Shown here: one piece after another, positions 270 through 8,398 of the stretch
How positions within the stretch are numbered: position 1 is the first letter of the stretch
Layout of the letters: each line of letters starts with the position of its first letter
Notes under the pieces: model-generated
The model's database searches: none
The model's input: the letters and a program-made list of their open reading frames with translations, nothing else
Told to the model about the DNA's origin: nothing
Assembly (NCBI GenBank): GCA_944332715.1
Contig: CALVKN010000011.1
Location: 1 to 35,940 of the forward strand
Direction: 5' to 3'
Length of the DNA stretch: 35,940 nucleotides
Origin: an uncultured Bacilli bacterium
Lineage (GTDB): Bacteria > Bacillota_I > Bacilli_A > RF39 > UBA660
Program-made: the position numbers and the translations under genes

Positions 270-373
270 GCCAAGCAAAAGATAAAGAGAGGAGATATCC
301 TTAATCAACTAGCCTATCTTTATCTTTGTTTGGCGATAATGGTATATGATTTAGGCTAGTTGATTAAGGATAT
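270..373 (+). promoter_or_regulatory. Interlocked inverted repeats in the transposase leader (candidate RNA switch)
   Basis: Two long inverted repeats are interleaved in the order A-B-A'-B'. A (270-288) pairs with A' (317-334) over 18 positions with one bulge and one G-U. B (295-315) pairs perfectly with B' (353-373) over 21 positions. B' contains AAGGA (366-370), the only SD-like sequence before the transposase ATG at 383, and B contains the complementary TCCTT (298-302). Pairing B:B' would therefore hide the ribosome binding site. The six-base A-B linker looks too short to span a full 21-bp B:B' helix, so the two stems are likely alternative rather than simultaneous. The structure is seen; the regulatory role is inferred. 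Confidence 0.7.
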
Positions 374-382
374 TTTTATAAT

Positions 383-1438
383 ATGAAAATAGAAGAATTA
401 TTAAAAGATTTAGATCCTATAACTATTATTGAATTTAAAAATTATATTATTAATCATCTATCTGAATTATGTTCTACCAAAAATTCTAATTCGAAAATTA
501 TTTCTAAATTCAAAAATGAAAACATGATTTGTAAAGAATGTGGAAGCAAAATATATAAGAATGGTAGAACCCAAAATGGCATTCAAAAATATATATGTAG
601 TTGTTGTAAAAAAACATATTCGGAAACAACCAATACTATTATATGCCATAGTAAATTACCATTTGAAGTATGGAAAAATATTATTGATAATTTATTAAAT
701 GGCTTTAGTTTAAGAAGAATCGCAGAAGAAAATAATATATCCCTTTTAACATCTTTTAGAATAAGGCATAAAGTTTTATATGCTTTAAAAACATTTGTGA
801 ATTCTATTAATTTATCTGTTGAAATACAGTCTGATGAGAAATATTTTTCCATTAATTTAAAAGAAACAAAGCCTATAAATATGCCAAGATATTCTAAAAA
901 AAGAAGCTCTATAAAATCTCCATATAGAGGCATTAGTCATCATAAAATATGTGTTGTTTCTAGTATTGATGAATTTGATAATTTATTGTTAGAAATAGTG
1001 GGCTTAGGAAGATGCACAACCGATATGTTAAATGATTCTTTAGGTCAAAAATTAAACAATGCAAAATCAATAAATGCAGATAGTGCTAGTGCTTATCAAG
1101 AATTTTGTCAAAATAATCAACTTATTTTAAATGCAATTTCTTCTGGATTTCATAGTGATGGCATTTACAATATATCAAAAATTAACGGAGTACATTCACA
1201 ACTCGAAACATGGTTAAAAAAATTTCGAGGAGTTTCTACTAGACATTTACAAGAATATTTAGATTGGTTTGTTTATATATTTATCATGAAAAAAAGATTC
1301 ATGTTAAATAAAATAAAAACAGAATCTTATACTAATATTATTATTGATAATAATTATATTAAAGCCAAGGATATTTTTCATATAAAAATGCCGATTGATT
1401 TAAATATCGCTTATGCTGAATATTTTAATCAGTCATAA
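383..1438 (+). CDS. IS1595-family (ISXO2-like) transposase
   Basis: This 351-residue protein would catalyse movement of the surrounding element. The N-terminus has a zinc ribbon (C50, C53, C72, C75), followed by a helical DNA-binding stretch with a helix-turn-helix look (LRRIAEENNISLLTSFRIRH). The catalytic domain shows D in SDEKYF, D in NADSASAYQ, and then INGVHSQLETWLKKFRGVST with a downstream YLDWFVY, the pattern of the ISXO2-like/IS1595 transposase domain. The third position reads N, consistent with the DDN-K subgroup of that family as I recall it. Length is normal and there is no frameshift, so the gene looks intact. The only SD-like AAGGA (366-370) is 12 bases upstream and lies inside a perfect inverted repeat, so translation is probably kept low. 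Confidence 0.88.
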   Translation: MKIEELLKDLDPITIIEFKNYIINHLSELCSTKNSNSKIISKFKNENMICKECGSKIYKNGRTQNGIQKYICSCCKKTYSETTNTIICHSKLPFEVWKNIIDNLLNGFSLRRIAEENNISLLTSFRIRHKVLYALKTFVNSINLSVEIQSDEKYFSINLKETKPINMPRYSKKRSSIKSPYRGISHHKICVVSSIDEFDNLLLEIVGLGRCTTDMLNDSLGQKLNNAKSINADSASAYQEFCQNNQLILNAISSGFHSDGIYNISKINGVHSQLETWLKKFRGVSTRHLQEYLDWFVYIFIMKKRFMLNKIKTESYTNIIIDNNYIKAKDIFHIKMPIDLNIAYAEYFNQS

Positions 1439-1733: not shown

Positions 1734-2609
1734 TCAATTATTTAATATTTCTTTTACTTTATCTATATAATTTAATTCTACCAATTTTTTATCTACTTCT
1801 TTTGAAACTTGTTTTAATGTTAAATCCATATTATTCTTTTCTATTTTAAAATTTTTAAATTCTTTAATAAACTTCTCTTGTAAATCCTTTAAATACTTTT
1901 GATTTTTTTCTCCATAAAAATAACGCATTAATTTTCTATTTGTTTTGCTAGAATATGCCCCAAAATATATTACATTTAATATTTCCGGATAACTGGATAT
2001 AGCTATTATATCGTCTATTAAATCTTTATCCAATTTCAATTTTTTATACATAAAATCTAAATATAAATATTCTATAAAAATCAAAATATACTTTATCTCA
2101 TTTACAATATACTTTTTTATATAGCTATTACCTATTAAGTAACTAACTGCTTCTTTTAAATTAGTAATATGTGTAAGTTTAGATAAATATGAATAAATTT
2201 CTTTTATATCATCTTCATTAATGTTATCACTTAAAAGTTCATTAATATTCTTTACAACTATTCTTTTAAAATATCCAGCTGCAGTCTCTGCATCTATATC
2301 TAAATTTACATTTAATGACGAAGCCATCACATATAGAATTTCTTCATATGTATTTCTAAGCAAGCAGATACTGCTTATTACTTCTCCTTTTTCTAACAAC
2401 TCATATACTAATTTAAATTCATTAATAATCTCATTAAATATATATTTTGAGCCTTTATATTCTGAAATCTCATTATGTCTTATCTGGTTCATTAGCTCTA
2501 AATATATATAATTGCTCGCATCTAATAATTTAATTATTTTATCAAAACTATAATTTTTATTTCTGTTTTCCAAATCCCTAATAAAACCTTTTATTTTCGT
2601 TTGCTTCAT
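1734..2609 (-). CDS. Hypothetical helical protein next to KAP NTPase (possibly DUF5677/HEPN-like)
   Basis: I do not recognise this 291-residue protein with certainty. It is predicted to be almost all helical, with no signal peptide or membrane span. The middle holds LLRNTYEEILYVMA followed about 50 residues later by YSYLSKLTHITN, which resembles the layout of DUF5677-type proteins (an arginine-containing helix, then a conserved H after a Y-x-x-L-S helix). The spacing also recalls HEPN-type folds, but the canonical R-x4-6-H is not clear. The start has a G-rich SD (GGGGG) 8 bases upstream. It follows the KAP NTPase gene on the same strand after a 223-bp gap with a hairpin. The neighbourhood (IS, KAP NTPase) suggests an accessory or defence role; that is inference. 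Confidence 0.6.
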   Translation of the reverse strand: MKQTKIKGFIRDLENRNKNYSFDKIIKLLDASNYIYLELMNQIRHNEISEYKGSKYIFNEIINEFKLVYELLEKGEVISSICLLRNTYEEILYVMASSLNVNLDIDAETAAGYFKRIVVKNINELLSDNINEDDIKEIYSYLSKLTHITNLKEAVSYLIGNSYIKKYIVNEIKYILIFIEYLYLDFMYKKLKLDKDLIDDIIAISSYPEILNVIYFGAYSSKTNRKLMRYFYGEKNQKYLKDLQEKFIKEFKNFKIEKNNMDLTLKQVSKEVDKKLVELNYIDKVKEILNN

Positions 2610-2832: not shown

Positions 2833-4116
2833 TCAACATATAGAAGAAAAATTGCTTATCATTGAAATTACATCGAGAAACATTGCTTTTGTTTTATGCG
2901 TTAGGCGATTTTTAGATGAATAATTGTTAAAGTAAATATTATATATATCTTCTACATATTCAATTGGAGTTTTTCTTTGACTTAGGTTACTTTTATCCTT
3001 TGAAATTATATCATCTATTACATCAGTCAAATCTTTTTCTTTTTTAATTATTGAAATAAAATCATCAATATTTCTTCCACTTATAAATTCATTAAATATT
3101 TTTACACTTCTAATTTTCAAAGCCAAACAATATGGAACAAAAACATATTTTAATAAAGAATTTTCACTAAAACTATCAAAACTATTATAGTAATCAGATA
3201 ACAAATCCATTATATAGATATAACGATTAATTTCCCGCATGCTAAAATTATAATATTCGCATAATGACTTAATTACTGAAACGCTCCATGTATCTCCAAG
3301 ATAAACAGATAATATATCATCAATATATGTATTAGGATCTATATTTTCTAGTGTAAATATAAGATCATAAATTTTGTTTAAATAACCATAGCCATCAAAT
3401 TTTTCGCCATAAAATTTTGAAATAGTACATGCCAACTGCTCATTATTACTCGCTAATATAAAAATTAAGTTATTATTATTAAAAAAGTGTTTTATGGTTT
3501 CAATTAATTTAACAGCAAAATTTGGATTACATCTATCTAATTCATCTATAATCATGACAATTTTTTTGTCGTTTGGTATTATATTATTTAACAAATTATT
3601 TAATGCCTTTTTTTGCTCTTCTACAGTGTAAATACTTTCAACTAAATCTTTATAGCTTTTTACTTTATCAATATTTATCAAATCACAACTAATAGATTTT
3701 ATAAATTTTTTAAAATCTAGAGGTAATTGTACAGTTTCATCAAAAATTTGGTTTTGTTCTTTAGGAAAATCATTTACAATTTTAAATATAATAGATTTCA
3801 AAGGATCTTCGTGATTATCATTTTCCCACGCATTATAGTAATAAACAATGTATTTACTATTAAATTCATCAATTACGTTTTTTTCTAAACCAATATTATT
3901 TCCTAAATCTTTCAATTTTTCTTTATTTATTAGTTCAATTTGTTTTACAAAAACTGTTTTACCACACCCCCAATTTCCATCAATTGATAATATAGTATTT
4001 TTTTTCAACAAATTTATTATTTTTAATAAATTGTTTATTTTAGTGTTTCTCTTTAACTTATTAGTTTTCATAAGTTCAAACAGTTTTTCTTTAGTTAATT
4101 CCAAATCATAATTCAT
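2833..4116 (-). CDS. KAP family P-loop NTPase
   Basis: This 427-residue protein is a predicted ATPase of the KAP group (STAND-like P-loop NTPases that include phage-exclusion proteins such as PifA). The Walker A motif GNWGCGKT is at about residues 47-54, the family motif YYNAWENDNHEDP follows near 93-105, and Walker B with the family signature IIDELDRCNP is at about 189-198, followed by a sensor-like FILASN. Unlike many KAP proteins it shows no obvious pair of membrane helices inserted in the ATPase core, so it is probably cytoplasmic. The start is supported by GGTGA 9 bases upstream and a TATAAT at 4134-4139 (minus). It may act with the gene at 1734-2609; a defence role is possible but rests on family and context only. 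Confidence 0.85.
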   Translation of the reverse strand: MNYDLELTKEKLFELMKTNKLKRNTKINNLLKIINLLKKNTILSIDGNWGCGKTVFVKQIELINKEKLKDLGNNIGLEKNVIDEFNSKYIVYYYNAWENDNHEDPLKSIIFKIVNDFPKEQNQIFDETVQLPLDFKKFIKSISCDLINIDKVKSYKDLVESIYTVEEQKKALNNLLNNIIPNDKKIVMIIDELDRCNPNFAVKLIETIKHFFNNNNLIFILASNNEQLACTISKFYGEKFDGYGYLNKIYDLIFTLENIDPNTYIDDILSVYLGDTWSVSVIKSLCEYYNFSMREINRYIYIMDLLSDYYNSFDSFSENSLLKYVFVPYCLALKIRSVKIFNEFISGRNIDDFISIIKKEKDLTDVIDDIISKDKSNLSQRKTPIEYVEDIYNIYFNNYSSKNRLTHKTKAMFLDVISMISNFSSIC

Positions 4117-5842: not shown

Positions 5843-8398
5843 GTGTTAAAATTAAACAATATCAAAAAAAATTATGAAACAGGCAATGAATCTGTTAAAG
5901 CCTTAAAAGGTATCAGTATCGAATTTCGTGAAAACGAATTCGTTTCTATTTTAGGTCCATCCGGTTGTGGTAAAACTACTTTACTTAATATCATCGGTGG
6001 ACTTGATCATTATACTTCCGGAGACTTAACCATCGATGGCATAAGTACCAAAAAGTATAAAGATCGTGACTGGGATACTTACCGTAATCATCGTATTGGT
6101 TTTGTTTTCCAAAATTATAACCTTATTACTCATCAATCAGTGTTATCCAATGTTGAACTTGCCCTAACCCTTTCTGGCGTTGACAAACAAACTAGAAGAA
6201 AAAAAGCCATTGAAGTTTTAGAAAAAGTTGGCCTTAAAGATCAAATGCATAAAAGACCTAATCAAATGTCCGGTGGTCAAATGCAAAGAGTTGCTATAGC
6301 AAGAGCCCTAGTAAATGATCCAGACATATTACTAGCTGATGAACCAACCGGTGCTCTAGACACTAAAACCAGTGTTCAAATCATGGAAATATTAAAAGAA
6401 ATTTCCAAAGACCGTTTGATAATCATGGTTACTCACAATCCTGAGTTAGCTAAAAAATATTCAACTAGAATAATTAACTTACTCGATGGTGAAGTAACCA
6501 GTGACTCTAAACCTTACAGTTCTAAAAAAGAAGAAAAAGAAAAAATTAAAGAAGAAAAGAGAAAAGCCAAGAAAACCTCAATGTCCTTCCTAACAGCCAT
6601 GAACTTAAGTTTAAATAACTTGATGACTAAAAAAGGAAGAACTATTCTTACTGCTTTCGCCGGTTCCATCGGTATCATCGGTATAGCCTTAATTCTTTCT
6701 ATCTCTAATGGCGTTCAACAGTATATAAACAACGTTGAAGAAGAAACATTAACTAGTTACCCGTTAACAGTTCAAGAAGAATCTGTTCAAATTGCTGATT
6801 TTCTCGAATCTATGCAGCCAGATCCTGATAAAGAAATCCACGATGATGGCAAAATTTATTCCAACGATGTCATGAGTGGCATGATGAGTACTGTTGCTGC
6901 TAAAGTAAAAAGCAATAACTTAGAAGCCTTCAAATCATACATCGAAAGTGATGAAACTAACATTAAAGATTACACATCAGCAATCAGTTATTCTTATAAT
7001 CTAAACTTACAAATCTATAAAGATGATACTGATGAAATCGTCCAAGTAAATCCTAATACTGTTTTAGATGAACTTGGCATGTCAATGAATGAAATGCAAT
7101 CTGCATTCGTATCTACTGATGTTTTCTCGGAAATGTTTGATAGCGAGGAAATGAATAAGCAAATGTATGATTTAGTTGCAGGTTCTTGGCCAACCAAATA
7201 TAATGAAGTTGTCTTAGTAGTAGATGAAAACAATGAAATCAGTGACTTCACATTATATGCTCTAGGTCTAAAAGATTCAGATGAACTATCTGAAATGTAT
7301 CAAAATATTTTAGATGGTACCCCATTTGAAGTAGAACAAACATCATATGATATTGATGACCTTGTTGGAATGAATTTCAAATTTCTTTTAAACTCTGATT
7401 ATTATGACAAAGAAAATGGCATCTGGGTTGATAAAAAATCAGATGAAAAATACATGAAAGAATTACTGGAAAATGCTGAAGAACTAACAATAACAGGTAT
7501 TATCAAACCAAATGAAGAATCTGTTGTTACTTCTACTGCTGGTGGAATCCTTTACTTAAAAGATTTAAAAGAATACGTAATTAACAAAATAAATGAATCA
7601 GAAATTGCTAAAGAACAAACCGAAAATCCTGATATCAATGTTTTCACAGGGCAAGAATTTAGCGATGAAGAATTCGATGTTAATTCTCTAACACCTGAAC
7701 AACTTGCCTATTTACAAAGTCTAAGTCCTACCGAAATGGCTCAAGTAATTGAAAATTATGAAAAACAAGCTGGAGCAACTTATGAAGATGTTTTAAATCA
7801 AATTGGAGTAATCGATTTAGATAAACCATCATCTATAAACATCTATCCCAAAGACTTCGATTCTAAAGAAGAAATTGTTAATATAATTAATAACTATAAT
7901 GAAAAAGCCCAAGAAGAAGGACACGACGAAAACGTTATCAACTATAGTGATTTAGTTGGAGTTATGATGAGTGGTGTTTCTACCATCATCGATGTTATAA
8001 GTTATGTTCTAATGGCTTTCGTTAGTATATCCTTAATAGTATCTTCCATCATGATTGGTATAATTACTTATATCTCTGTTCTAGAAAGAACTAAAGAAAT
8101 TGGAATACTTCGAGCAATCGGAGCCAGCAAAAAAGATATATCTCGTGTATTTAACGCCGAAACATTTATCGAAGGCTTAATTGCAGGAGTCATGGGAATA
8201 CTTATTACCATACTTCTAACAATTCCAATAAATATCATAATTAAAAATTTAGCAGGTATATCAAATGTTGCAATATTACCTATCGGTGGAGCAATAATAT
8301 TAGTAATAATAAGTATCTTACTTACAACAATCGCTGGACTTATACCATCTCGCATGGCTAGTAAAAAAGATCCAGTTGAAGCTCTAAGAGTAGATTAA
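5843..8398 (+). CDS. MacB-like ABC transporter, ATPase and FtsX-type permease fused
   Basis: This 851-residue protein starts with GTG behind a strong AAGGAGATG. Residues 1-230 are a LolD/MacB-type ATPase: Walker A GPSGCGKTT, Q-loop FQNYNLI, signature MSGGQMQRVAIARAL, Walker B ILLADEPTGALD, and the switch H in VTHNPE. A charged linker leads to a first membrane helix (about 275-290, IGIIGIALILSISNGV). A very large acidic extracytoplasmic region follows, then three C-terminal helices of the FtsX-like permease ending in IPSRMASKKDPVEALR. Such fusions export lipid-linked or peptide substrates or confer peptide resistance; this substrate is unknown. It is the second gene of an operon with the CDF-like protein and is closed by the terminator at 8397-8424. 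Confidence 0.93.
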   Translation: MLKLNNIKKNYETGNESVKALKGISIEFRENEFVSILGPSGCGKTTLLNIIGGLDHYTSGDLTIDGISTKKYKDRDWDTYRNHRIGFVFQNYNLITHQSVLSNVELALTLSGVDKQTRRKKAIEVLEKVGLKDQMHKRPNQMSGGQMQRVAIARALVNDPDILLADEPTGALDTKTSVQIMEILKEISKDRLIIMVTHNPELAKKYSTRIINLLDGEVTSDSKPYSSKKEEKEKIKEEKRKAKKTSMSFLTAMNLSLNNLMTKKGRTILTAFAGSIGIIGIALILSISNGVQQYINNVEEETLTSYPLTVQEESVQIADFLESMQPDPDKEIHDDGKIYSNDVMSGMMSTVAAKVKSNNLEAFKSYIESDETNIKDYTSAISYSYNLNLQIYKDDTDEIVQVNPNTVLDELGMSMNEMQSAFVSTDVFSEMFDSEEMNKQMYDLVAGSWPTKYNEVVLVVDENNEISDFTLYALGLKDSDELSEMYQNILDGTPFEVEQTSYDIDDLVGMNFKFLLNSDYYDKENGIWVDKKSDEKYMKELLENAEELTITGIIKPNEESVVTSTAGGILYLKDLKEYVINKINESEIAKEQTENPDINVFTGQEFSDEEFDVNSLTPEQLAYLQSLSPTEMAQVIENYEKQAGATYEDVLNQIGVIDLDKPSSINIYPKDFDSKEEIVNIINNYNEKAQEEGHDENVINYSDLVGVMMSGVSTIIDVISYVLMAFVSISLIVSSIMIGIITYISVLERTKEIGILRAIGASKKDISRVFNAETFIEGLIAGVMGILITILLTIPINIIIKNLAGISNVAILPIGGAIILVIISILLTTIAGLIPSRMASKKDPVEALRVD

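Follow-up and report, generated by a model that had tools for sequence, protein, structure and literature searches.

An apparent RNA switch of two interlocked helices in the transposase leader of IS1595-family insertion sequences

The window, that is, the whole stretch of 35,940 nt analysed here from contig C11 of a draft genome (G000; 1.52 Mb, 75 contigs), contains one complete copy of an IS1595-family insertion sequence with a leader, located on the plus strand at about 218-1452. Its transposase gene, tnp (383-1438, plus strand), encodes 351 amino acids and matches the IS1595-family profile NF033547 with 127.3 bits (cut-off 75), together with PF12762 (28.6 bits, cut-off 27) and the IS1/IS1595 zinc domain (32.6 bits, cut-off 28). 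Terminal inverted repeats of 41 nt (90%) lie within 202-242 and 1428-1468. The possession of both a DDE transposase and terminal repeats places the element in the IS1595 family. Target duplications of 8 bp were found for four relatives (L008, L011, L012 and L013) and are imperfect in the window copy. The flanks of the window copy (about 205-217 and 1453-1465) and the sites of L009, L011, L013, L040, L041 and L072 are AT-rich with T-runs on one or both sides, and several such IS1595 insertions lie directly 3' of an intrinsic-terminator-like hairpin, which suggests that this group of elements may favour terminators as targets. Elsewhere in the window, a gene for a KAP-family P-loop NTPase (2833-4116, minus strand) adjoins an ORF of 291 aa (1734-2609, minus strand) that had no match in a Pfam search.

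A sigma-70-like promoter of tnp was predicted at 234-262 on the plus strand (ATGACT-17 nt-TATAAT), with a predicted transcription start at ~268-270 that coincides with the first base of arm A. A TATAAT-like box at ~6-7 nt from A recurs in relatives. Four plus-strand arms follow one another between the predicted start and the tnp ATG in the order A (270-288), B (295-316), A' (317-334) and B' (352-373), and since A pairs with A' and B with B', the two helices cannot nest as hairpins. Helix A:A' comprises 18 pairs including one G-U, with one bulged base, while B:B' is a perfect helix of 22 Watson-Crick pairs, or 26 when G-U pairs with the T-run are counted. The linkers L1, L2 and L3 measure 6, 0 and 17 nt, the last (335-351) separating A' from B'. 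A small hairpin, C, is predicted to form between an SD-like GAGGA strand (289-293) and positions 298-302, which double as part of arm B. The only Shine-Dalgarno sequence (SD) near the ATG, AAGGA at 366-370, lies within B', and an intrinsic-terminator-like T-run (373-377) is located directly 3' of B'. The original prediction had described interleaved repeats A-B-A'-B' at 270-373 on a transcript starting at A; its coordinates, topology and start agree with these results, with B:B' having 22 rather than 21 pairs.

The leader RNA folded with a z score of -6.2 and none of 200 shuffled sequences was equally stable, so the structure is not due to chance. A scan for interleaved stems across the whole window gave the leader a score of 77, with no more than 47.5 elsewhere. 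Two additional features were considered and rejected. A leader peptide starting from AAAGGAG (289-294) would find only TTA within B and no ATG, GTG or TTG in the window clade, and an extension of A:A' into the -10 region, which is AT-rich, was present in some alignment rows only and absent in others.

Relatives were gathered by the transposase protein alone, which leaves the sample unbiased as to RNA. In a covariation alignment of 23 rows with the interlocked structure specified (40 pairs), two-sided compensatory changes that kept the pairing were found in 37 of the 40 pairs; within the close clade only, they were found in 21 of 40. This comparison of related copies was the check that the original prediction had proposed for itself, and both repeats were kept. 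Paired cells amounted to 93.3%, whereas shuffling the columns left 74.6% and sliding one strand left 32-46%. The slid control favours the structure, which was drawn from one alignment row, although the two-sided changes sit in other rows. An alignment of the stems that gave G-U and A-C the same score contained 76 G-U and 5 A-C, whereas DNA palindromes predict equal numbers; thus, both helices are under selection as plus-strand RNA. In addition to pairing, sequence was conserved in parts of B and at the ends of A. The leader matched no Rfam family at the gathering score, and matches to microRNA families, far under their gathering scores, were dismissed as chance.

In addition to the topology and conservation, which were observed directly, the order and stability of the possible states were modelled by RNAfold, which scores nested structures and not pseudoknots. 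Nascent RNA beginning with A and ending immediately short of B' was predicted to form A:A' in 32 of 34 leaders, and the full leader was predicted to prefer B:B' in 30 of 34, where it was typically 9-20 kcal/mol more stable. Nested refolding barriers were mostly 22-34 kcal/mol, so that the RNA would stay in whichever state it adopted during transcription, barring help from a pseudoknotted path. Hairpin C, formed between the 5' half of B and the linker, is predicted to extend the A:A' nascent fold in most window-clade members and shares that half of B with helix B:B'. Its support is moderate, with a combined shuffle p value of 4e-4 when related rows are taken as independent, and uneven across clades. 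Two predicted states, together with the strand bias that identifies the selected molecule as RNA, support the two-state RNA switch of the original prediction. Its further proposal that transposase is made only from certain transcripts was not supported, because adding ~90 nt of upstream sequence left the nascent A:A' unchanged and, with few exceptions, the full-length B:B' as well. No factor tipping the switch was found, and folding alone predicts that A:A' always forms first.

Copies of the leader were located by homology or by sequence motif. The same architecture was present in intact copies whose transposases are 66-83% identical to that of the window and in most of those at about 34-48%. 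It was also found in further families of the same class (L075 and L077 in f22, L076 in f12, L078 and L089 in f10, and L097 in f14) and in a decayed copy (L090, f21). L1 measures 4-11 nt in the window clade and 12-25 nt in other clades, so the earlier argument that the linkers strain simultaneous pairing holds for the former, whereas partial coexistence of the helices could be possible in the latter. L2 is 0-4 nt in most members and is short in most leaders, including the second leader type and the IS5-associated leader described below. A third interlocked helix, D, which joins the linker after A to the linker after A' (L1-L3), was clear in L050, L055 and L074 (shuffle p values of 0.003, 0.003 and 0.017). 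The leader was absent from ISSag10, ISCaje5 and IS1595 elements of Pontibacillus, Enterococcus, Niallia and Collinsella, and from L056, L080, L081, L083, L086, L091, L092, L096 and L098, while L079 may carry a relic of the A hairpin. Placing leader presence on the transposase tree requires three changes, which may represent one ancient gain followed by losses; the deepest branches of this tree are long, leaving the history of the leader uncertain. In the decayed L009, upstream of a tnp remnant, and in L061, the stretch from B to B' is deleted between AAGGA repeats, with A kept and the SD open. Viral contigs contained no IS1595 relatives, and a motif pattern search of them returned, among the matches listed, mostly chance ones. 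One viral contig, L155 (IMGVR_UViG_3300028595_000107, 7166-7272), has an unrelated A-B-A'-B' arrangement with arms of 20 and 21 bp, preceded by a promoter-like TTGACT and followed by T7. It lies between genes of the phage, with no transposase in the vicinity, and resembles a small RNA whose terminator is interlocked.

A covariance model of the leader was built and searched, and it matched L113, in which the same architecture precedes an IS5-family transposase (Pfam DDE_Tnp_4, 87.8 bits; NCBIfam IS5 model, 126 bits, below the cut-off of 140) inside that element's own, different terminal repeats. Related IS5 elements from Spiroplasma, Annamia and G054 (L124-L126) lack the leader, which suggests that it was acquired. 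Used as a search pattern, the conserved ends of A (TGCYAAAC...GTTTRGCGAY) recovered a second leader type (type II) in genomes G609, G620, G637, G643, G649 and G667, while the reversed pattern, as a control, returned almost nothing. Type II leaders precede a divergent IS1595-type transposase and have a B sequence unrelated to that of the first type (type I), yet the order is again A-D-B-A'-D'-B'. Their pairs consist of 201 Watson-Crick, 8 G-U and 0 A-C, and D' (GACGTTCC) can pair either with D or with the SD located 3' of B'. In this type, A:A' and B:B' may have swapped their on and off roles relative to the window. G667 harbours at least 14 leaders, seven of each type, on its single contig C1 (for example at 382904, 1102042 and 34789; L078, L128 and L140-L154), and most copies are identical, which suggests that these elements were recently active. 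A type II leader was also found on a plasmid of Tenericutes bacterium MO-XQ (CP017949). The type II element L131 sits between two equal-score tRNA matches (140-213 and 1486-1559), with a 5S rRNA gene upstream.

The position of the SD relative to B' bears on what B:B' does. The original prediction that the second repeat hides the only SD is correct for the window clade, where the sole SD lies inside B' and a T-run follows, but does not extend to L015, L075-L078, L089 and L090, where both helices are kept and the SD comes after the B' stem, with the ATG 11-25 nt past that stem. In these same leaders a T-rich tract follows B', with a longest T-run of 3-6 in the stretch counted. Among type I leaders the T-run after B' is mostly 4-7, with the exception of L030, which has its SD within B' and no T-run. 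An SD beyond B' combined with a T-rich tract after it fits a terminator and does not fit mere SD burial, and a terminator would therefore be the more general reading of B:B'. Type II leaders lack a T-tract, so termination is not universal. A simple terminator scan did not call B:B', because its loop is 35 nt.

The leader is apparently a real, undescribed RNA switch that probably limits the amount of transposase. We give about even odds (a probability of roughly 0.5) to the reading that the tnp mRNA leader is a co-transcriptional two-state switch of two interlocked helices, with termination after B' and a low level of transposase as the outcome. A:A' would close at the 5' end of the RNA once A' leaves RNA polymerase, while hairpin C would hold the 5' half of B and leave the 3' half single-stranded. 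The first half of the emerging B' could then pair with the exposed half of B, and the helices might stack on each other, since L2 is 0-4 nt long in most members. With B trapped inside the loop that A:A' closes, B:B' could be completed only by opening C and a large part of A:A'. As long as A:A' stays paired, the base of B:B', next to the T-run and SD, would remain open and transposase would be expressed; once B:B' is complete, the RNA would terminate after B', and in the window clade the SD would be buried as well. Transposase would be kept low by the balance between these outcomes. Termination, the topological block and the identity of the "on" state are the elements that we infer in this scheme. 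More tentatively, these RNAs could constitute a leader class defined by topology, in which the 5' ends of transposase mRNAs carry two long helices, or in some cases three, arranged as A-(D)-B-A'-(D')-B'. Such leaders would have been exchanged between transposase families or have evolved independently in them, and a topological lock would let the first-folded helix stop the second from winding up.

There are other explanations. B:B' might only bury the ribosome site, with A:A' as a competitor that frees it and no termination involved, as the SD inside B' in the window clade, L030 with its buried SD and no T-run, and the precedents of IS200 (PMC12594629) and ISPpu9 (PMC8450116) would all allow; this is nevertheless unlikely, since L015, L075-L078, L089 and L090 keep both helices although their SD lies past B' and a T-rich tract follows. 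We consider it similarly improbable that the helices coexist in one stable H-type pseudoknot, which might for example protect the 5' end, serve RNase III as a substrate or provide a binding platform for a ligand, a host factor or the transposase. Interleaved helices that both covary, a short L2 as is typical of stacked pseudoknots, an L1 of 12-25 nt in some clades that would permit coexistence, and an arm A beginning at the predicted 5' end are all compatible with such a fold. However, full pairing by our reasoning looks strained in the window clade, where an L1 of 6 nt faces 22 bp, and neither a conserved unpaired aptamer-like core nor an Rfam match was apparent.

A function in trans, as a stand-alone small RNA of about 110 nt for which control of tnp is secondary, would account for the sequence conservation beyond pairing in parts of B and at the ends of A and has a precedent in the 5'tnpA RNA of IS200 (PMC12594629). 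Yet the inspected leaders directly precede a transposase ORF, in some cases decayed or truncated by the contig end, and the covariance-model search gave no clear orphan copies, making this quite improbable. Long inverted repeats close to an IS end could be DNA-level palindromes that bind transposase or a regulator or extrude as cruciforms, but the pairing is kept while the sequence diverges and the plus-strand excess of G-U over A-C contradicts this reading, to which we assign hardly any probability.

Only for a few elements is it understood in detail how an insertion sequence keeps its transposase scarce. In IS10 and IS50, an RNA structure limits transposase and is described as forming only in transcripts from outside, whereas the present structure is predicted equally with or without upstream sequence. 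In IS200, a structured tnpA leader buries the RBS, and the available part of that report describes no interleaved partner helix (PMC12594629). The tnp 5'-UTR of ISPpu9 (IS110/IS492 family) is long and structured, hides the RBS and limits transposase (PMC8450116); it is opened by the antisense RNA Asr9, whereas the present leader differs in topology and has no known antisense RNA. An SD within a stable helix, as in these systems, was found in the window clade, but SD burial is not a shared, conserved feature of the leaders. Mobile attenuators are terminators before IS transposases that guard against outside transcription in Bacilli and others (Naville and Gautheret 2010; PMC2965389). Type I leaders, except L030, likewise carry, ahead of the ORF, a stable hairpin with a T-rich tract directly after it, and type II leaders do not. 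In the accessible portion of that work, the attenuators are conserved terminators and not one of two covarying interlocked helices, and IS1595 is not named among their families. A literature search covering few subscription papers retrieved no transposase leader described as having two long interlocked helices, and both this topology and its occurrence in more than one transposase family look new. A conserved RNA architecture with 14 copies in one genome (G667) offers a clear two-state model. In the fluoride and ZTP riboswitches, a pseudoknotted aptamer and strand displacement co-transcriptionally decide the fate of a downstream terminator (PMC11077080, PMC10085676). These platforms, as the available parts of both reports describe them, have a ligand-binding core, whereas the present leader consists of two helices of 18-25 bp with no evident aptamer. 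The leader lends itself naturally to testing whether gene expression can be decided during transcription by the order of the helices and the threading of the strands rather than by ligand binding.
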